Position numbers and translations under genes: made by a program. The notes under the pieces were generated by a model, which saw only the letters and a list, made by a program, of their open reading frames with translations, made no database searches and was not told where the DNA came from. A DNA stretch of 24,632 bases from a virus, in the IMG/VR virus record IMGVR_UViG_3300041411_000293, positions 1-24,632 of that record. One strand, given 5' to 3'. Below are positions 261-15,950 of the stretch, piece after piece. Numbering within the stretch: position 1 is the first letter of the stretch; each line of letters opens with the position of its first letter.

Positions 261-291
261 GCGCAAAACCCGCGCAAAACCTGCGCAAAAC
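261..291. repeat. three 11-bp-spaced direct repeats, candidate Int arm sites
   Basis: GCGCAAAAC occurs at 261-269, 272-280 and 283-291, exactly 11 bases apart, between attL and the int stop codon. Lambda-type integrases bind short direct repeats (arm-type sites) beside the core through an N-terminal domain, and the Int here appears to have such a domain. The helical spacing and position fit P'-arm sites. This is an inference from layout; binding has not been shown. Confidence 0.5.
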
Positions 292-1403
292 TATCCGGTG
301 ATTTCGCTGATATTCAGGTCTGGAATTGCCTCCGACCAGACGATTTCTGCGTGGTCTTTCTGGTAGTTCTTGGTCATGCTTTCGCTCGCGTGGCCAGCGA
401 TTCTCTGCCCGTCTTTTCCGGCTTTTTGGTACAGGTGCAGCGACAGCGCTCGCACTTCGTGGAAGCCCGGCATTTCCTCTTCCTTCCATCCCTTGTAACA
501 ACCCGCCATTTCCCGAGCCTCCTTGAAGGCCCGCGTCAAATACCGCTCTTCAACCTGCGTCCAGTGATCCTTCGTCTGTGCCTGTTTCTGTTTCAGGCGA
601 TTGGGGCGGCGATGGACTAGGTACGGGGAGGCGATATCATCCCGGCACCGGCTGATCACGGCCTGAAGTTCTTCAGTCACCTTGAACCGGATCCACGCCG
701 CGTCACTGGCCTTGGCCGTTTTCTGTTGGACCACATACAGATACCCTTCCCGAACACCATCGAATCGCATGTTGAGGATGTCGGTGCGGCGCTGCGCAGT
801 GATCAGTGCAAGGTCGATTGCGTTCTGCAGCCAGAACGGCGACTTTTCCCGTATGGCTTTCAGACCTTCAATCGTGTGCCGTTTGCGCTGCTTCTTTTCG
901 ATTCGGTTGATGGTGCTGGCCGCCGCGTTGTCCGGGCAGAGGCCTTTGGCCGCTGCGTGGTTGAAGATATCGATCAGCAGGGCGCGGCACTGGTTTGCCG
1001 TGCGAGGGGTGAGGGCATCCAGCATCTCCGCGATCATGCGGATCGTGATCTGGTCTATCGCTTTTCCCTCGAACTGCTTGCGGAAACGCCGGAAGTGCAC
1101 GGCGTACAGGCCAAGCGTTCCTTTTGCCAATTCGCGCGGCGGCAAAACATCGCGTTCATAGGTGTCGAGGAAGCTGGCGAATGACTCGGATGAACTGCCC
1201 ATCACGGCGCCGATCAGGTCGGCGCCGCGCATGAACTCCAGGTTCAATTGCTTCGCAGCATCGATCGCCTTGATTCGGTCGCTGCCGAACTGAAACCATT
1301 TACCGTCGGTAGGCCGCCGGTAGCGATAGGTCGAGCGCCGCGAATCGAAGTACAGGTTTTGCGGGAGGCTCTTGTTCGCCTTGTTGCGCGGCCGTGGGAC
1401 CAT
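291..1403 (-). CDS. int: phage integrase, tyrosine recombinase
   Basis: This is a site-specific recombinase that integrates and excises the prophage at the tRNA-Pro gene. The 370-aa protein has an N-terminal basic region resembling the lambda Int arm-binding domain (about residues 5-55), a SAM-like core-binding domain (about 70-160) and a catalytic domain. The catalytic set is visible: Arg205 in AQRRTDIL, Lys228, His315-x-x-Arg318, His338 in AGHAS and the nucleophile Tyr347. It is transcribed with xis, whose stop overlaps its start region (ATGATG at 1401-1406). I chose the second ATG because it lies 7 bases from AAAGGAG; the first (1406) would add one residue. Nothing suggests damage. Confidence 0.93.
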   Translation of the reverse strand: MVPRPRNKANKSLPQNLYFDSRRSTYRYRRPTDGKWFQFGSDRIKAIDAAKQLNLEFMRGADLIGAVMGSSSESFASFLDTYERDVLPPRELAKGTLGLYAVHFRRFRKQFEGKAIDQITIRMIAEMLDALTPRTANQCRALLIDIFNHAAAKGLCPDNAAASTINRIEKKQRKRHTIEGLKAIREKSPFWLQNAIDLALITAQRRTDILNMRFDGVREGYLYVVQQKTAKASDAAWIRFKVTEELQAVISRCRDDIASPYLVHRRPNRLKQKQAQTKDHWTQVEERYLTRAFKEAREMAGCYKGWKEEEMPGFHEVRALSLHLYQKAGKDGQRIAGHASESMTKNYQKDHAEIVWSEAIPDLNISEITG

Positions 1404-1615
1404 CATGCAGCTCCTTTCAATACCATCGCGACCAGGTCATTGCCTTCCGACCGATTGAACGCTGTCCAATCAACGTACCAGAGTTTGCCGATCTGCTCTC
1501 CGGGCACCTGTCCGTTTCGAATGTAGTTGCGGATTGCTTGTGGGCACGGAGGGGTGCCGTTCTCGCCCCAGCGCCGGCGCTGGAACTCACTGATCTTGAT
1601 CAGCTCTCTTTTCAT
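1403..1615 (-). CDS. xis: excisionase / recombination directionality factor
   Basis: This 70-aa basic protein has a winged-helix/MerR-like look (KISEFQRRRWGENGTPPCPQ, then a C-terminal GKLWYVDWTAF motif), typical of small phage excisionases that bend attR/attL DNA and steer Int towards excision. It lies directly upstream of int with overlapping ends (TGA 1403-1405 against ATGATG), a lambda-like xis-int pairing. I chose the ATG at 1615 because GGAG lies 6 bases upstream; an in-frame ATG at 1627 has no ribosome site. Identification rests on size, motif and position. Confidence 0.8.
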   Translation of the reverse strand: MKRELIKISEFQRRRWGENGTPPCPQAIRNYIRNGQVPGEQIGKLWYVDWTAFNRSEGNDLVAMVLKGAA

Positions 1616-5101: not shown

Positions 5102-5130
5102 AATATAGGTAATCCCATATTTTATGTCAA
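5102..5130 (-). promoter_or_regulatory. PL promoter
   Basis: On the minus strand a perfect -35 TTGACA (5125-5130) is followed after exactly 17 bases by TATATT (5102-5107). Transcription should start near 5095 and run through the early genes to xis-int. Two repressor sites overlap it: one covers the spacer and part of the -10, the other touches the -35. Confidence 0.85.
5105..5118. promoter_or_regulatory. operator OL2 (CI/Cro site)
   Basis: ATAGG-TAAT-CCCAT, the same dyad as the three sites at OR. It covers the end of the PL spacer and part of the -10, so bound repressor excludes RNA polymerase. Its centre is 25 bases from OL1. Confidence 0.75.
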
Positions 5131-5143
5131 TGGGTATTCCCAT
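5130..5143. promoter_or_regulatory. operator OL1 (CI/Cro site)
   Basis: ATGGG-TATT-CCCAT, the best match to the shared operator dyad, differing from OR1 by one base. It adjoins the PL -35. Matching sites 6 kb away at OR would allow CI looping of the lambda kind (inference). Confidence 0.8.
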
Positions 5144-5160
5144 ATGTCTATTTTTAACGA

Positions 5161-6034: not shown

Positions 6035-8254
6035 TTAACTGACTTGAATATCTTGGTTGAGCACTGCACTCTCTAATTCAGCACCCATGCTTTGTACAGT
6101 AGAGTCATACAAGGCACTATCAGCGTCAAGCGCACTAAGCGTAAGCACAAACGCCACTTCCTGAGGTGCTAACTCTGAATGATGGCTCATATCATATTGA
6201 AAAAGGTCGCGGGTAAACACTCGAGCATTTAAGCGCATTGTGGAGCCGCTGATACCAGTGCCATTATGATGTTTGAAATGATTTCGAATCGGGTTCCATT
6301 TTGACAAATCGGATCTTGCTATCGCTTCTTTTTCTTTATCCTCTCTCATGCTGCCCGCCAGACTAATAGTTTTGCCTGCAGATGATGTCGCCTGCAGAGA
6401 AGTCTGAAGGCGAGAGGAAAAATAATTTTCCCCCACGGAGTTGGATATCAATGGGTTTAAGATTGCGGTTAACGCTACTTTACCTACAAATTTACCGTCT
6501 TTCACCAATTCCTGAGGGATGGGGATGTCATTCCAGTAGTAATTGAATCCAGGCTGTAATCTTGAAGTCCAAGCAAGTGTAACGTCACCAGGAGCACAGA
6601 ACCAAGGAAGATTGTTTTCATCCCATGGTGTTCCCCACCCAATAGTGTTGCTGTGGGCGTTTAATTCGGCTCGATTTATAAGTAGCGCTCTGACTAAGTC
6701 TGGTGTCGAACCCTTAATATTCACGAAAGTGTGGGCGGCAAGAGAGGACACTAAAGGTGTGCTGAAGCTGGTTCCTGTTTCGATTACCCCTCCTATCATT
6801 CTAAGTTCAGAAAACCAAGATAGATCTGGTTTTCGCATGCCAGCAGGAGAGGGGCCTCTTAGGCTTAGTTTGCAACCTTCACCTAAAGACTTAGTTGAAT
6901 CGTTGAAGGTGCGCCCGCTAATTGTAAGCGCTGCTTCACAGTCGGCAGGTGGGCATATGAGCTTACGTTTTGGATTGTGATTATTGTTTCCGGCCGAAAT
7001 GATAGGCAGGATATTGTATTTTCTCGCCAGCTTGCTTACCTCGTGACCTAGAAAACTTACCTCGTCTTTCTGGTCTTTAGATGCAACTTGGTTGAATGAT
7101 AGATTCCAGACTTTTGCATGGTTGGATGTTAGCTGTGCAACGCGATCAAGATAGCTTAGAAGCTGGCGATGATTTGGTGCTTTGAGTGCGCTATCTTTAC
7201 AAATTGCCTGGGCAGATATAAAAGTACAATCTAAGGCTGGCAAAGGGCGATTATTATTCCAAGCGTGAGCATGGCAGATCAGGGATGCTACTTTATTTCC
7301 ATGACTTTGGTTTGCGTCGGTATCTTTGACCAGGGGAGGCAGCGGTAATTTTTGAAGAGGAAGATAACTGCGCGCGCTTACACCACCGTCAATTATTAGA
7401 ACTGTCGGAGATGTCTTGGAAATGTTCGACGGAACGGGATCCTTGCCAGTGCCTGGATGGGAGGAGAGCCTGACACTTGGAGCCGCCTCAATACGGTAAA
7501 CTGCACCTGAAGAGAGAATGGTTCGGAAGTCTTTTTTGCTAGAAAAATTTAGTGAGAAAACTCCAGCACCAGAGGTTAGGTACCTTTGGAGTACGTCTTG
7601 GAGATTATCTGCTGCGATCTCTCCTATCGCTTCACCCCAAGCGTTTTCAAACTCGGGATGTCCCAAAGTGCAGTTTGTTTCGGATATAGAGCTCTTAATT
7701 CTCTCAACAAGTTTTTTTCTTGCTAGCTGATTTTTGAAAGGTTTTAACCAGATATTTAAAACCTTGTCTGTGCCTTCTGAAGGCAATGATTCCCAGAAAT
7801 CTTTTTCTGACGCTCCTCTTAACGTTTCGCTGGCATCAAATGCTGCAATGCTCGAAATTCGAGAAATGTCTACCATGTCGTTAGTCTTTTTTGTTGAGGA
7901 AAGATGGCTGGAAAGAACTTCCAGTTTATCTCTTTCGATCTCAACCAGAAAACCCTTGTACGCTGGCGCTACGATCCGACAGTTTGACCGAGAGTCAAAT
8001 ATATCAGTAGGTGTCCAACTTGGCGAAAGAGAGTCCTCATCCATTTTTGCAATGAGATGAACCACACCTGAAAAAGTCAGATCGTCGATATCGGCCTTGT
8101 TGATCGTCTTAACGCTTTTTGAAAGCTGCGCTCTTTTGCTGTCTAATAGGTCAACCTTAATTCCTTTCGCGTTTTTCCCTCCGCCTGGAACGGTTTTCGG
8201 AATTGGAGACTTGAGAAGTTTTAAGACGGGATTTACCACAGGCCGATTCGCCAT
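6035..8254 (-). CDS. ietS: subtilisin-like serine protease, IetS-type
   Basis: A 739-aa S8-family protease with no signal peptide, so it is cytoplasmic. The catalytic set is complete: Asp289 in VLIIDGGV, His318 in SHGNKVASL, oxyanion Asn423 in SAGNNN and Ser496 in GTSFSTP. About 280 residues of unassigned sequence precede the protease domain and about 190 follow it. It lies 4 bases after an AAA+ ATPase gene with its own good ribosome site (AAGGA). In the IetAS family, known as a plasmid stability and incompatibility determinant of an Agrobacterium Ti plasmid and later reported as an anti-phage system, the protease is the toxic effector and the ATPase restrains it. That role is carried over from the family. 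Base use is much AT-richer than the phage genes, so this is imported cargo. Confidence 0.85.
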   Translation of the reverse strand: MANRPVVNPVLKLLKSPIPKTVPGGGKNAKGIKVDLLDSKRAQLSKSVKTINKADIDDLTFSGVVHLIAKMDEDSLSPSWTPTDIFDSRSNCRIVAPAYKGFLVEIERDKLEVLSSHLSSTKKTNDMVDISRISSIAAFDASETLRGASEKDFWESLPSEGTDKVLNIWLKPFKNQLARKKLVERIKSSISETNCTLGHPEFENAWGEAIGEIAADNLQDVLQRYLTSGAGVFSLNFSSKKDFRTILSSGAVYRIEAAPSVRLSSHPGTGKDPVPSNISKTSPTVLIIDGGVSARSYLPLQKLPLPPLVKDTDANQSHGNKVASLICHAHAWNNNRPLPALDCTFISAQAICKDSALKAPNHRQLLSYLDRVAQLTSNHAKVWNLSFNQVASKDQKDEVSFLGHEVSKLARKYNILPIISAGNNNHNPKRKLICPPADCEAALTISGRTFNDSTKSLGEGCKLSLRGPSPAGMRKPDLSWFSELRMIGGVIETGTSFSTPLVSSLAAHTFVNIKGSTPDLVRALLINRAELNAHSNTIGWGTPWDENNLPWFCAPGDVTLAWTSRLQPGFNYYWNDIPIPQELVKDGKFVGKVALTAILNPLISNSVGENYFSSRLQTSLQATSSAGKTISLAGSMREDKEKEAIARSDLSKWNPIRNHFKHHNGTGISGSTMRLNARVFTRDLFQYDMSHHSELAPQEVAFVLTLSALDADSALYDSTVQSMGAELESAVLNQDIQVS

Positions 8255-8258
8255 GCTA

Positions 8259-9413
8259 CTAATCCTTTAGATATGTTGAGAGTGTTTGGCGGCTAGTTTT
8301 TATTATTGCTAAAATTTCGACTTGGCTAAGTTTGAATGTTTGGTTTAGAAGTCGACAGAATTCTTTTTTGTTTAATTGCTCTCCTGCGGATATTTGCAAA
8401 TCGGGATGTGCGCTTCTGATTGTGTTAATTGCAATTTCTTGTAAATCTATTTTTTGTTTGGAGATTATAGATATACGTCGTGCCGAAAGAGAGATGGACT
8501 CGATATCGGCACCGCTTAAGGTAGATGATATTTTTGCAAGGGACGTTGTGGTCGTTGCATCACCTTTGTCTTGAAATAGAAAGTGATTCCACAGATGAGC
8601 TCGCAGATCTATATCTGGTTGTTCGAAATCCATTCGGTAAGGAAATCGGCGCCATATTGCTCTATCTAGTAATTCGGCATGATTAGTTGCCGCAATAACA
8701 ATCGCTCTGTCATCAAGAGAGTCAATTGCTTGAATTAAAGTGTTGACAACTCTCTTTAGCTCGCCTAACTCATGTTGGTCGTTTCGGAGTTTGGCGATGG
8801 CGTCAAACTCATCCAAAAAAATAATTCCATTTTTTTCAGGTACAAAATCAAAAACGCTTCTAATGTTTTTTGCAGTGTCGCCTAGCAGTGATGATACTAA
8901 TGAATCAAGTCTAACTACATAAAGTGGCATGTTTAGGGCGGAGGCGATGTGCCCAGCAACTAGTGTTTTGCCTGTGCCTGGAGGGCCAGACATAAGCAGG
9001 TTCATTTTTCCGGATAGACCATTTTTTAATAATAGGTCGTAGTTTTTAACACTAGAAATAAACGATTCGAATGTTTTCTTGAGAGTTTCGTTTAAGAAAA
9101 CCGGGTTAACCGGCCACGCCTGTTCCTCTACCAACGCACTTCTTGATTTTGGATCAGTAGGAATATTTTCGGAGTAACCAGACGCCCGAAGTGGAACGCC
9201 ATTTCGACGTATTGCTAGTTTGATTTTCTTGCTCACGTCGGGGGCAGCAGAAGCAGAATGAGTGGCAAGGCGATTGGATATCTGCCTCACGCTGGTGTAA
9301 TCCGCATTTAAAGAGGCGTCTATCAGCCGCAGGAGATCTTGAGAAGGTATGGTTATGTCTAGGGACATGTCATCAATGCTTAGAAAATTTGAGCGAATGT
9401 CTAATTTTTTCAC
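8259..9413 (-). CDS. ietA: AAA+ ATPase, IetA-type partner of the protease
   Basis: A 384-aa AAA+ ATPase of the FtsH/spastin-like kind: Walker A GPPGTGKT (143-150), Walker B IIFLDEFD (197-204), sensor-1 Asn244 in AATNHAELLD, paired arginines in AIWRRF (255-256) as fingers, and a sensor-2-like SGADIES (300-306). The last 25 residues resemble a helix-turn-helix (LSQVEILAIIKTSRQTLSTYLK), unusual at the end of an AAA+ protein. It is the first gene of the two-gene operon. In the IetAS family it is the antitoxin-like partner that controls the subtilase. The start is taken as the GTG at 9413; the ribosome site is weak, and a rare-codon start a few residues upstream cannot be excluded. Confidence 0.87.
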   Translation of the reverse strand: MKKLDIRSNFLSIDDMSLDITIPSQDLLRLIDASLNADYTSVRQISNRLATHSASAAPDVSKKIKLAIRRNGVPLRASGYSENIPTDPKSRSALVEEQAWPVNPVFLNETLKKTFESFISSVKNYDLLLKNGLSGKMNLLMSGPPGTGKTLVAGHIASALNMPLYVVRLDSLVSSLLGDTAKNIRSVFDFVPEKNGIIFLDEFDAIAKLRNDQHELGELKRVVNTLIQAIDSLDDRAIVIAATNHAELLDRAIWRRFPYRMDFEQPDIDLRAHLWNHFLFQDKGDATTTTSLAKISSTLSGADIESISLSARRISIISKQKIDLQEIAINTIRSAHPDLQISAGEQLNKKEFCRLLNQTFKLSQVEILAIIKTSRQTLSTYLKD

Positions 9414-10458: not shown

Positions 10459-11121
10459 CTAAAACTTCTGCAGAGCGCGAACCACAACACCAACGATCCG
10501 ACAGTCCTCATTGAACGGCTCGATTCGCCAGGCTGGATTCAGCGGCTTCAGAAAAAGCTTTCCACCATCATTGACCAGCTTCTTGAACGTCGCCTCATTA
10601 CTGTCTGGCAGCTTGGCGATCACTAGTTTCCCGGGTGCTGCTTCAGCCTCTGTGTCCACCAGAATCAGCGTGCCTTCCGTAACGCTTTGGCCGACAGGAG
10701 AGGTCATCGAGTCGCCTTTGACCTCTAACCAGAATGCAGCGCCCTTCGAGTTGTATTCGGAAAACTCGTATCGATCGGAGAAGCCGGCAGGATAGGGCTC
10801 AATGGCTTCAGCCCAGGCGCCGGCGGCGACCCAACTGATCACGGGGTAACGGTAGGACGCTACGGGCTGGCGGGTGTCGCTGACGTTGGAGTCTTCAGGG
10901 CCACCAGAACCTGAAGATGTCATGGGGCCAATTTCGTCGGATAGCCACTTCGCGCTCACGCCACAGGCGTCAGCAATCTTCACTACATGTGCAGTGGCTT
11001 TGGATTTTCCGCGTTCAAGATCAGAAATGGACGTTTGCGTGATGCCCGCCCGGGCGGCAAGTTCTATCTGATTGAGCTTTGCGTGCCGTCTTGCGGCCTT
11101 TAAACGATCTTTGAATTCCAT
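10459..11121 (-). CDS. cI: CI-type prophage repressor, HTH plus S24 autocleavage domain
   Basis: A 220-aa repressor. The N-terminal helix-turn-helix (about residues 5-60, with QIELAARAGITQTSISDLERG) binds the operators. The C-terminal LexA/CI-like domain has a cleavage site Ala100-Gly101 in WVAAGAW, nucleophile Ser138 in GDSMTSP and general-base Lys180 in TFKKL. RecA-stimulated self-cleavage on DNA damage is therefore expected, making the prophage SOS-inducible. No ribosome site precedes ATG 11121, and the PRM -10 places the transcript start at about 11121-11122, so the mRNA is probably leaderless, as for lambda cI from PRM. It is divergent from cro across three operators. Confidence 0.93.
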   Translation of the reverse strand: MEFKDRLKAARRHAKLNQIELAARAGITQTSISDLERGKSKATAHVVKIADACGVSAKWLSDEIGPMTSSGSGGPEDSNVSDTRQPVASYRYPVISWVAAGAWAEAIEPYPAGFSDRYEFSEYNSKGAAFWLEVKGDSMTSPVGQSVTEGTLILVDTEAEAAPGKLVIAKLPDSNEATFKKLVNDGGKLFLKPLNPAWRIEPFNEDCRIVGVVVRALQKF

Positions 11122-11128
11122 TGAAGGA

Positions 11129-11157
11129 GTATTACGGGTGCTCCCATATCCTTGCAA
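11129..11157 (-). promoter_or_regulatory. PRM, cI maintenance promoter
   Basis: On the minus strand TTGCAA (11152-11157), 17 bases, then TAATAC (11129-11134). The predicted start coincides with the cI ATG, so the message lacks a leader. OR3 sits in the spacer (repression). OR2 is centred about 42 bases upstream of the start, the geometry for activation by repressor contact. Confidence 0.75.
11134..11147. promoter_or_regulatory. operator OR3
   Basis: ACGGG-TGCT-CCCAT lies within the PRM spacer and touches its -10. Its centre is 24 bases from OR2. Binding here should shut off cI synthesis, as Cro or excess CI does in lambda. Confidence 0.72.
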
Positions 11158-11180
11158 ATCGGCATTCCTATAAATTAACA
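11152..11180 (+). promoter_or_regulatory. PR, rightward early promoter
   Basis: TTGCAA (11152-11157) and TTAACA (11175-11180) are 17 bases apart. The -35 hexamer is its own reverse complement, so PR and PRM appear to share it. Transcription should start near 11187, inside OR1, and read cro and the replication genes. Confidence 0.65.
11158..11171. promoter_or_regulatory. operator OR2
   Basis: ATCGG-CATT-CCTAT, the weakest match of the set, lies exactly midway between OR1 and OR3. It fills the PR spacer and abuts the PRM -35, where bound CI could both repress PR and activate PRM. Confidence 0.65.
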
Positions 11181-11181
11181 T

Positions 11182-11195
11182 ATGGGTATTCCCGT
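11182..11195. promoter_or_regulatory. operator OR1
   Basis: ATGGG-TATT-CCCGT differs by one base from OL1. It covers the predicted PR start site, just upstream of the cro ribosome site. Confidence 0.78.
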
Positions 11196-11207
11196 ATGGA
11201 GGGCGAC

Positions 11208-11477: not shown

Positions 11478-12092
11478 ATGGAAACGTCCAGTCCAAGACA
11501 CAGCGTCCAAACCCGCGACCAGGTGCTGGTAGCGCACGCGGCAAACCAGATCGCTCGTACCAGCCTGAGTCAGGACGATTTCGCCCAAGCGCTTAGCCGC
11601 GAGCTGCACTTGGCGTGTCCGGAGAAGGCCACCGCCAAAGAGGTACCGGACTTCGGCGCGCTGACTGAGCAGAACGATGTTGGTGAGTTCGTGAAGGCTA
11701 CTGGCCGCTGGCTGAAGCGGGTGCAGCGCTGGCTGTCCGGCGATCAAGACATGCCGTCTTGGCTGGAAGAGTCATGGGTGAATGCTCTGGAACCTGAGTT
11801 CCGCGATCACTGCCTCAACGAGCTGGCCAGCCGTCACGGCTTGATCGGCGCCCGCCAGATGCCGAGCGAGCAGTGCGCGAACAAAAGCTTCGGCTCGCTG
11901 ATCCGCGCCTTGGGCGACATGATCGACACCGGCAGCGAAGTTTTTGATGACCAAGTGATGTGCGAAGAGGACTTGCCGCATCTGCCGGCGTTCGCCAAGC
12001 AATGCCGCCAGGTTGAAGCGCGGGCAGGGGAGCTGGGTCGGAAGGCTGAGGAGTTGCTCGACAAGCACAGACCAAAACTGAAAATCGCCTGA
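11478..12092 (+). CDS. hypothetical protein in the cII position
   Basis: A 204-aa soluble, mostly helical protein beginning METSSPRHSVQTRDQVLVAH, with an N-terminal segment (about residues 12-45) that could be an atypical helix-turn-helix and a charged C-terminal helix (EARAGELGRKAEELLDKHRP). It lies immediately after cro, where lambdoid phages carry cII, but I see no clear CII-family signature and it is twice the usual CII length. The ribosome site is weak. A terminator follows it. Treat it as an early protein of unknown role, with a lysis/lysogeny regulator as one possibility. Confidence 0.7.
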   Translation: METSSPRHSVQTRDQVLVAHAANQIARTSLSQDDFAQALSRELHLACPEKATAKEVPDFGALTEQNDVGEFVKATGRWLKRVQRWLSGDQDMPSWLEESWVNALEPEFRDHCLNELASRHGLIGARQMPSEQCANKSFGSLIRALGDMIDTGSEVFDDQVMCEEDLPHLPAFAKQCRQVEARAGELGRKAEELLDKHRPKLKIA

Positions 12093-12163: not shown

Positions 12164-12907
12164 ATGCACAACCACATCACCCCCGGCAACACCCGCCATG
12201 TCGCGACACTTTTGAGCAGTTCGCAAAACGTGTCGTGTCACACCATGTCGTCACGCGAGATTGCCGAACTAACCGGCAGCACGCATGACAATGTTCTGAA
12301 AACAGTTCGGGCTCTGGTTGCCAAGGGTGTCGTTTCTTCAAACGACACCCCCTATGTCCACCCACAAAACGGTCAAGTCTATCGCGAATTCCTGTTGTCT
12401 CAGCGCGACACCCTAGTGGTTGTCTCGGGTTACAGCGTTGAACTGCGCGCACGGATCGTTGATCGATGGCAGGAGCTGGAGGCCGAGGTAAGGCAGTTCC
12501 AGATTCCAGCGACTTACGCTGAAGCATTACAGGCCGCTGCCGACCAGGCAAAGGACAACCAGTCGCTGCGTCTGGTCATACTCGATCAGGCACCGAAAGT
12601 GACGGCCATCAAACGGCTGGCTGCAGCCGGCGGTGCAATATGCATCACCGACGCGGCTAAGCATCTGCAAATCCAGCCGTCGAAGCTTTTCACCTGGATG
12701 GAAAAGAACCGCTGGATTTTTCGGCGTCTTGGTTCGGGCCGCTGGACTGCCTACCAGCCGCGCATCACGTCCGGCTACATGATTCACAAAGTCACCTCCT
12801 TGAAGGCAAACCCTGAAACCGGCGCCGAGCGCGCGGCCTTCGATCCATTGGTCACCCCGAAAGGTCTTGCCCGTTTGGCCGAATTCAATATCGGAGCTTC
12901 TCTGTGA
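12164..12907 (+). CDS. Rha/KilAC-type phage antirepressor
   Basis: A 247-aa two-domain regulator. The N-terminal Rha-like domain (about residues 20-108) has SSREIAELTG, HDNVLKTVR, YREFLLSQRDTLVVVSGY and RARIVDRWQELE. The C-terminal KilAC/ANT domain (about 115-245) has LAAAGGAICITDAAKHLQIQPSKLFTWM, RRLGSGRWTAYQ and VTPKGLARLAE, a DNA-binding unit common in phage antirepressors. It probably modulates CI or host regulators during early growth. The ATG at 12164 lacks a strong ribosome site; an internal ATG at 12245 would remove 27 residues. It overlaps the next gene by 4 bases (GTGA). Confidence 0.82.
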   Translation: MHNHITPGNTRHVATLLSSSQNVSCHTMSSREIAELTGSTHDNVLKTVRALVAKGVVSSNDTPYVHPQNGQVYREFLLSQRDTLVVVSGYSVELRARIVDRWQELEAEVRQFQIPATYAEALQAAADQAKDNQSLRLVILDQAPKVTAIKRLAAAGGAICITDAAKHLQIQPSKLFTWMEKNRWIFRRLGSGRWTAYQPRITSGYMIHKVTSLKANPETGAERAAFDPLVTPKGLARLAEFNIGASL

Positions 12908-14456: not shown

Positions 14457-14658
14457 TCGCCTACTGGCTGTTCCTGACCCGAAGAACTACCGATTCGCCG
14501 TGTTCTGTTGCTCTTTCAAGTGGGATCTAGGGAGCACTCCCGATCACGCATTGGCTTTGTTTGTTGATCAGGCAATGGCTGAGCGTTATGGCGCATCGAT
14601 GTGGCCGAACACCTTTCAAGTCGTCGATCTCCTGGCTCCAGTAGGTAACCCACAATGA
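14449..14658 (+). CDS. hypothetical protein, 69 aa
   Basis: A small soluble protein beginning MTDRLLAVPDPKNYRFAVFC with the later segment DQAMAERYGASMWPNTFQVV. It overlaps P upstream by 8 bases and the recombinase gene downstream by 4 (ATGA), so it is certainly within the operon. I recognise no family. Its beta-rich start and helix suggest a compact domain, perhaps an accessory to replication or recombination, by position only. Confidence 0.65.
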   Translation: MTDRLLAVPDPKNYRFAVFCCSFKWDLGSTPDHALALFVDQAMAERYGASMWPNTFQVVDLLAPVGNPQ

Positions 14659-15950
14659 CCGCTCTCGTAAAAACCCTGACGGTAAAGCTGTCGGATGCTG
14701 AGATTGAGCGCAACGCCAAGAAGCTGCATGTCCGTGATCTGCGGGATGCGAGTCACCCCGCGTTGCACTTTCGCTTTTCGAAGAATCGCACCCGCGGTTC
14801 TTGGTATCTGCTCAGCAAGCGCACCTGGAACAAGATCGGCAACTTTCCCGACCTGAGCACAAAGCAGGTGGTCGCGGCGCTGCCGGCGGTCCGTCTGCGG
14901 GTCGCTGCTGATGAAGGGTCGAACCTTTCCAAATGGAGTACCACTGGCGAGCTGCTGGCCTGGTATGCCGAGCGTATGGCACGTGATCGCAACCTATCCG
15001 AGAAGCGCAAGAAGACTTGCGCCTCGATGATCAAATGTCACCTGATGCCGCGTCTCGACGATTTGCCGTTGACCGGCATCGACAAGGCTGTTCTCGACAG
15101 CCAACTGATGTGGCCATTGCAGGAAAACATTTCCATCGACTACGTGCGTTCGGTGTTCCAGCTGCTGGCCCTGGCTTTCCGTCAGGCGTTCAAGTTGGGC
15201 CTGATTTCGTCCAACCCAATGGCGAGCATGAAGTTCAACGACTTCTCCAAAGCCAAGGTTGGGATCAAGCCTTCCCGGTTGCGTGGTACCCAGCTCCAAG
15301 ACCTGATGACTCGCTTGCTCGGTGCTATGGCGAGCAACCCTTCGGACGCCCTGTTGGCTCTGATGATGCTCTGCCATGGCACCCGCATCGGCGAAACCCG
15401 GCAGGCACGCTGGTCGCACATCAACCTGGCCGAGCGTGAGTGGTTCATTCCGGCCGAGCACACCAAGACCGGCGTTGAGCATCACCTGCCGCTGACCGAC
15501 CAAGTGCGCAAGGTGCTCATCAGCTATCGCGTGATCCAGCGGGCCAAAGGATATGACGGTCAGTTCCTGTTCCCGTCCCGTAACGGAAAGGCACTCAGCG
15601 AAGGGCAGGCGAGTGCCGTGTTCGTGCGGCTGGGGCAGGGTGAGTGGACCAGTCACGACCTGCGCAAGGTAGCTCGTACCGGATGGGCAGACCTCGGCAT
15701 CGACCACTTGATCGGTGAGTTGCTGATCAACCATGCCATGGGGCACAACGTGAAGGTGTACATCCAGTCGGACGTGATGGGCCGCAAGCGTGATGCCCTG
15801 GAGCAATGGCACGCGCATCTAGATACGAAGGGCTTTGACCAGATTCATATGTTGACCGGCGTTAGATTCGGAGATTCCGGTAATGCGCTGGAAGCCACAG
15901 AACATAAGGCCTGCGAGGCCAATCAAGAATCAACCATAGGCGAGGATTAA
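14655..15950 (+). CDS. second tyrosine recombinase, in the replication operon
   Basis: A 431-aa tyrosine recombinase with a complete active site: Arg244 in HGTRIGETR, Lys271 in HTKTG, His334-x-x-Arg337 in SHDLRKVAR, His360 and Tyr369. It has an N-terminal DUF4102-like region (about residues 10-90), a core-binding domain (about 95-200) and a catalytic domain, with a C-terminal tail after about 385. It overlaps the 69-aa gene start-to-stop. No tRNA or att-like repeat is nearby and it is unlike the Int at the left end, so it is not the integrase for this insertion. Resolution of replication multimers, a ninB-like recombination role or a captured integrase are options. Confidence 0.85.
   Translation: MTALVKTLTVKLSDAEIERNAKKLHVRDLRDASHPALHFRFSKNRTRGSWYLLSKRTWNKIGNFPDLSTKQVVAALPAVRLRVAADEGSNLSKWSTTGELLAWYAERMARDRNLSEKRKKTCASMIKCHLMPRLDDLPLTGIDKAVLDSQLMWPLQENISIDYVRSVFQLLALAFRQAFKLGLISSNPMASMKFNDFSKAKVGIKPSRLRGTQLQDLMTRLLGAMASNPSDALLALMMLCHGTRIGETRQARWSHINLAEREWFIPAEHTKTGVEHHLPLTDQVRKVLISYRVIQRAKGYDGQFLFPSRNGKALSEGQASAVFVRLGQGEWTSHDLRKVARTGWADLGIDHLIGELLINHAMGHNVKVYIQSDVMGRKRDALEQWHAHLDTKGFDQIHMLTGVRFGDSGNALEATEHKACEANQESTIGED

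Follow-up and report, generated by a model that had tools for sequence, protein, structure and literature searches.

The right operator region (OR) of phage lambda is the textbook genetic switch, and in it the -35 elements of PR and PRM are separate. In the lambda record (NC_001416.1) the three operators follow one another at 23 and 24 bp, and the centres of the PR and PRM -35 hexamers are separated by 18 bp. The record of phage D3 (NC_002484.2) resembles the DNA described here in carrying a cI gene for an S24 repressor, a cro gene and a CII-like gene; it annotates pE together with three putative operators, spaced by 24 bp, that occupy 8060-8073, 8084-8097 and 8108-8121 of the locus, and it leaves PR, PRM and a shared -35 without annotation. 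For YA3, a phage of P. aeruginosa, divergent promoters have been predicted in the cI-cro gap and the immunity region has been compared with that of D3, as far as the consulted part of that report goes (PMC7326022).

Divergent promoters that overlap are also known from other systems. According to the sections consulted of two reports on bidirectional promoters of E. coli and Salmonella, RNA polymerase can face either way on one symmetric element, and boosting one direction can suppress the other (PMC12825309, PMC10268837). In pLS20, the overlapping divergent promoters Pr and Pc form a repressor-controlled switch that its authors, in the part consulted, likened to lambda, and in their favoured reading the -10 of one promoter lies on the -35 of the other (PMC4207663).

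The locus considered here lies in a window of 24,632 nucleotides, the whole stretch analysed, which corresponds to positions 1 to 24,632 of the IMG/VR virus record IMGVR_UViG_3300041411_000293 (Table 1). Divergent cI and cro repressor genes are followed downstream by a CII-like gene, three spaced dyads occupy the gap between the repressor genes, and a left operator is present together with PL. The N-terminus of CI and Cro are homologous to those of D3, with operators at the D3 offsets, and DNA comparison recovered the gap in D3, F10, JBD44, PMG1, PP9W2, VB_EV13 and PseuP_222, the sequences of which align with that of the window; an eighth region compared, from CBW1004C, has a 13-bp gap of a different type. 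We consider it likely, with good confidence, that this is the OR switch of a D3-type temperate phage in which PR and PRM share one palindromic -35, TTGCAA.

Table 1. Features of the putative switch and of the left operator in the window
Feature	Position	Strand	Remarks
OL2 operator	5104..5119		operator pattern match
PL -35, TTGACA	5125..5130	-	-10 TATATT at 5107-5102; 17-bp spacer
OL1 operator	5129..5144		operator pattern match; 25 bp from OL2
cI repressor, 220 aa	10459..11121	-	HTH_3 and Peptidase_S24; putative leaderless ATG at 11121
Putative PRM -10, AATACT	11128..11133	-	18 bp from TTGCAA; 6 nt before cI ATG
OR3 operator dyad	11133..11148		centre 11140.5; covers PRM spacer and -10 edge; D3 operator at equal offset
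TTGCAA palindromic hexamer	11152..11157		proposed -35 of PR (+) and PRM (-); position kept across relatives
OR2 operator dyad	11157..11172		centre 11164.5; left half weak; within PR spacer
Putative PR -10, TAACAT	11176..11181	+	18 bp from TTGCAA; weak match
OR1 operator dyad	11181..11196		centre 11188.5; covers PR -10 edge and predicted start
cro Shine-Dalgarno, GGAGGG	11198..11203	+	
cro-like repressor, 71 aa	11208..11423	+	phrog_35; sub-threshold P22_Cro/YdaS
CII-like activator gene	11478..12092	+	downstream of cro; phrog_4834

The three dyads of the gap are 16 bp long and exactly 24 bp apart, as the first-pass annotation had recognized; the positions it gave for them (11134, 11158 and 11182) are approximately their left edges (11133, 11157 and 11181). 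A 16-bp operator pattern was built from the two outer dyads, which therefore match by construction, and it found eight matches in the window, where shuffles lead one to expect 0.67 and none of 100 shuffles reached eight; those at 5104 and 5129 played no part in making the pattern. When the gaps of relatives were grouped into 37 clusters at 80% identity, palindromy peaked at -14, +10 and +34 from the centre of TTGCAA, again 24 bp apart, these being values conditional on the presence of the hexamer. The D3 operators stand at the same three offsets from the D3 hexamer, and in both phages 6 nt lie between the putative PRM -10 and the cI ATG, with cores that read TATGAG..CCCATA in D3 and TATGGG..CCCGTA in the window. 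The operator array is thus not new, since the D3 record annotates three operators at this spacing, and the earlier proposal of a lambda-style OR is supported by the comparison with relatives.

Seen from the PRM side, the arrays of lambda and of the window nearly superimpose. The centre of OR2 lies 43.5 bp upstream of the A of cI (42 bp in lambda) and that of OR3 19.5 bp (19 bp in lambda), and in both phages 6 nt separate the PRM -10 from the cI ATG. The earlier placement of OR2 at the position for activation of PRM by repressor agrees with this geometry, the distance of about 42 bases given for it being corrected to 43.5. The two systems differ on the other side, where the PR of the window appears slid 18 bp inward relative to lambda, so that its -35 falls on that of PRM and OR1, which in lambda is inside the PR spacer, comes to lie over the predicted PR start.

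The hexamer equals its own reverse complement, as can be seen directly and as had been noted before, and it stands between two -10-like hexamers that are 42 bp apart and each match the consensus at four of six positions; the predicted starts would be about 67 bp apart. When the gap was shuffled with its dinucleotides preserved, an arrangement of this kind, defined post hoc, arose 13 times in 200,000, and of the eight TTGCAA sites of the window one has it under the same definition. Both promoters are weak by consensus, because both fall below the threshold of nine matches in 12 at which a simple promoter scan of the window was run and from which they were absent. Their weakness agrees with the view that the region is an ordinary lambda OR in which two -35 elements coincide by chance, a reading that we hold to be most improbable in the face of the shuffling result and of the conservation of TTGCAA across the family. 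Three further assignments were discarded by eye: the -35 of PRM shifted by one base (17-bp spacer) gives a poorer consensus match; the hexamer is not part of an operator, since OR1, OR3 and OL all lack it; and, CII recognition involving TTGC repeats, no second TTGC lies at the distance from the hexamer that a CII-like repeat needs.

Conservation was followed in sets of relatives chosen for the similarity of one protein. Similarity to Cro alone, without regard to the gap (the best 80 of 166, best 80 of 234, best 80 of 231 and all 23 relatives in four scans) gave 263 loci that overlap because they share contigs, and distinct gap sequences alone were counted, which left 154. TTGCAA is at the same position in 152 of these, namely in 150 and in the gaps of L342/L351 and of L357, which were initially mis-assigned and carry the hexamer. 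One miss is found in Pseudomonas fluorescens HK44 (L227), with TGGCAA. The other, L354, carries at 1281-1520 an outgroup switch with a 130-bp gap, a Shine-Dalgarno sequence before cI and a separate PR (TTGACG-17 bp-TATACT), and it possibly represents a state without the shared -35. Selection on the CI N-terminus only (the best 80 of 464 and the best 80 of 290 relatives) yielded 111 loci with 81 distinct gaps, all of which keep TTGCAA, as do all seven named relatives recovered by DNA comparison; the named hosts are Pseudomonas, Halopseudomonas, Halomonas and Vreelandella. Examples only were taken from a search for the arrangement as a pattern, since that search was selected on TTGCAA; among the matches listed, most precede a CI-like gene, and the remainder have the look of chance matches.

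The surroundings of the hexamer have diverged widely. When gaps were clustered at 80% identity with the hexamer left aside, each of its six columns reached 2.00 bits over the 24 clusters, a value which, the clusters being drawn from gaps that bear TTGCAA, serves to show how far the rest has changed around it; the six columns that precede the cI ATG have 0.08-0.68 bits. Identity at fourfold degenerate sites of cI is 0.29 against 0.27 for random sequence, so neutral positions are saturated (the minimum pairwise CI identity of 0.08 is artefactual and stems from a single sequence that has an upstream ATG). Operator cores vary as well, among GGG..CCC, GCG..CGC, AGG..CCT and GGTATTGACC-like forms, and the hexamer remains constant. 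Six contiguous near-invariant bases exceed most -35 elements, and the adjoining A is likewise invariant in the 24 clusters, both of which might suggest that TTGCAA is bound by some other protein, a host factor or an additional contact of CI or Cro, its promoter use being incidental. This we regard as very unlikely: the seventh base fits into OR2, its counterpart in OR3 being invariant too; CI, Cro and the operator cores change between groups and TTGCAA does not, which makes a contact with CI or Cro unlikely; and the distances of 17 or 18 bp to both -10 hexamers require no such factor.

Those distances were examined on both sides. Among 150 gaps, the best -10-like hexamer of the PRM side lies at 18 bp in 132 and at 17 bp in 18, with at least four of six matches in every gap; on the PR side it lies at 18 bp in 124, at 17 bp in 20 and at 16 bp in six, with at least four matches in 131, and the mean match at 18 bp is 3.6 of 6. 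When the Cro- and CI-selected sets were combined (169 distinct gaps in 37 clusters), hexamers with at least four matches at 17 or 18 bp were present on the PRM side in 163 gaps and 33 clusters and on the PR side in 144 gaps and 28 clusters, counts that are conditional on the presence of TTGCAA. The -10 of PR is the weaker case of the two. An extra hexamer 11 bp from TTGCAA scores in 52 of the 169 gaps at a spacing that is unusable, and is read as the tail of OR2.

The left operator offers an unshared control. OL1 and OL2 flank a leftward promoter, TTGACA-17-TATATT, which identifies them as OL and PL. Read at a constant distance from the two OL operators, the PL -35 of 71 relatives is TTGACA in 39, TTGACG in 19, TTGACT in 11, TTGACC in one and TTAAAG in one, that is TTGACN in 70 and TTGCAA in none; ten of the 81 sources had no operator pair outside OR, partly because they came from short loci. 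Where one promoter is served the element thus appears as TTGACN, and where two meet back to back it appears as TTGCAA. Such a contrast bears on the possibility that TTGCAA serves PR alone as a -35, with PRM depending on an activator and needing little of a -35, and with the other half of the hexamer conserved for the spacing of CI at OR2 or as a second polymerase contact of PR. The -35 of lambda PRM is indeed poor, and noted with the same possibility is the exception in HK44, which keeps the TTG of the PRM side and alters the PR side, so that the latter is not absolute. An element serving PR alone is however expected to show AC at positions 4-5, as PL does in 70 of 71 cases, and CA is seen in 152 of 154; moreover, -10-like hexamers of the PRM side hold the distance of 17 or 18 bp in 163 of 169 gaps. 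We therefore judge that reading unlikely. The first-pass proposal of a single palindromic -35 for PR and PRM gains support from the near-invariance of the hexamer, the -10 hexamers at 17 or 18 bp on both sides and the contrast with PL, all of them properties of the sequence. In one prophage (L051) TTGCAA is intact beside a PR -10 of CGCTAT and a PL -35 of TTAAAG, which looks like decay of the early promoters.

The comparison also supports the earlier description of cI as leaderless and lacking a ribosome site. No Shine-Dalgarno sequence precedes cI in the window, where the ATG is 6 nt past the PRM -10; an SD-like 4-mer occurs before cI in none of 150 gaps and before cro in 139 of them, the distance of 6 nt is kept in 140, and few positions of the gap vary as much as the six nucleotides before the ATG. 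An upstream start at 11181 was rejected, as the proteins of relatives align from the ATG at 11121, a soft test given that the gap finder favoured starts bearing that N-terminal pattern. The N-terminus of CI, the operators and Cro travel together among relatives, and the S24 C-terminal parts are very different from one locus to another; the border of the module hence seems to fall inside cI. In lambda the rex genes occupy the position between cI and PL; here the same interval holds, at 6035-9413 (-), a subtilase and AAA ATPase pair with a PADLOC match to IetS/IetA. Elsewhere in the window, a protein with Rha and ANT/KilAC domains (12164-12907, +) is an antirepressor candidate, and a second gene with a Phage_integrase domain, of 431 aa, lies in the rightward operon (14655-15950, +), the other integrase being at 291-1406 (-).

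A literature search for divergent promoters with a shared -35 returned shared -10 cases and other overlaps only, older phage papers being mostly outside its scope, and a search for a shared -35 in a phage switch found none, with the D3 papers (Farinha 1994, Kropinski 2000) outside its scope. A shared -35 is not mentioned in the consulted parts of the articles on a TA-prophage switch (PMC8630535) and on phi13 (PMC8516035), and the portion consulted of a DC3000 start-site paper, checked for prophage repressors, held nothing of use. The bidirectional promoters, in the sections consulted, share the -10 and have starts 7-25 bp apart, whereas the window would share the -35 between back-to-back promoters with the -10 hexamers 42 bp and the predicted starts about 67 bp apart, which places it outside that class; promoters competing for a shared element have a precedent in one of the reports (PMC12825309, in part), with the -10 shared and the starts close. 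In the authors' favoured reading of pLS20 a -10 lies on a -35, and here a -35 would lie on a -35. The arrangement would be a new variation on the known lambda-like switch; the D3 literature may already note the shared -35.

A shared -35 is only one way to account for the near-invariance of TTGCAA. No other hexamer has TTG as its first three bases on both strands, so that dual use would explain why it is locked. Region 4 of sigma would dock on it in either orientation, with room for one holoenzyme, so that PR and PRM would be mutually exclusive as soon as polymerase binds; judged from this geometry, their exclusivity would be strict. CI on OR1 and OR2 would cover the spacer, -10 and start of PR, and at OR2, 10 bp beside the hexamer, it would be placed like lambda CI to hold sigma in the PRM direction, the cI message beginning at its own AUG; Cro, or CI at high level, on OR3 would cover the spacer and -10 of PRM. 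The chances seem about even that this defines a class of switch in which the decision lies in the way that sigma region 4 faces on a single palindromic -35, the occupancy of OR2 versus OR3 selects the direction, and the specificity of the repressors can drift freely while double use locks the hexamer. If true, this lock would account for those bases of the switch that are conserved most strongly. A large group of phages of Pseudomonas, Halopseudomonas and Halomonas/Vreelandella seems to have merged the two -35 elements that lambda keeps apart, and may offer a natural setting in which to study competition between promoters. It may also be a clean example of how two promoters together constrain one regulatory element while the specificity of the surrounding proteins diverges.
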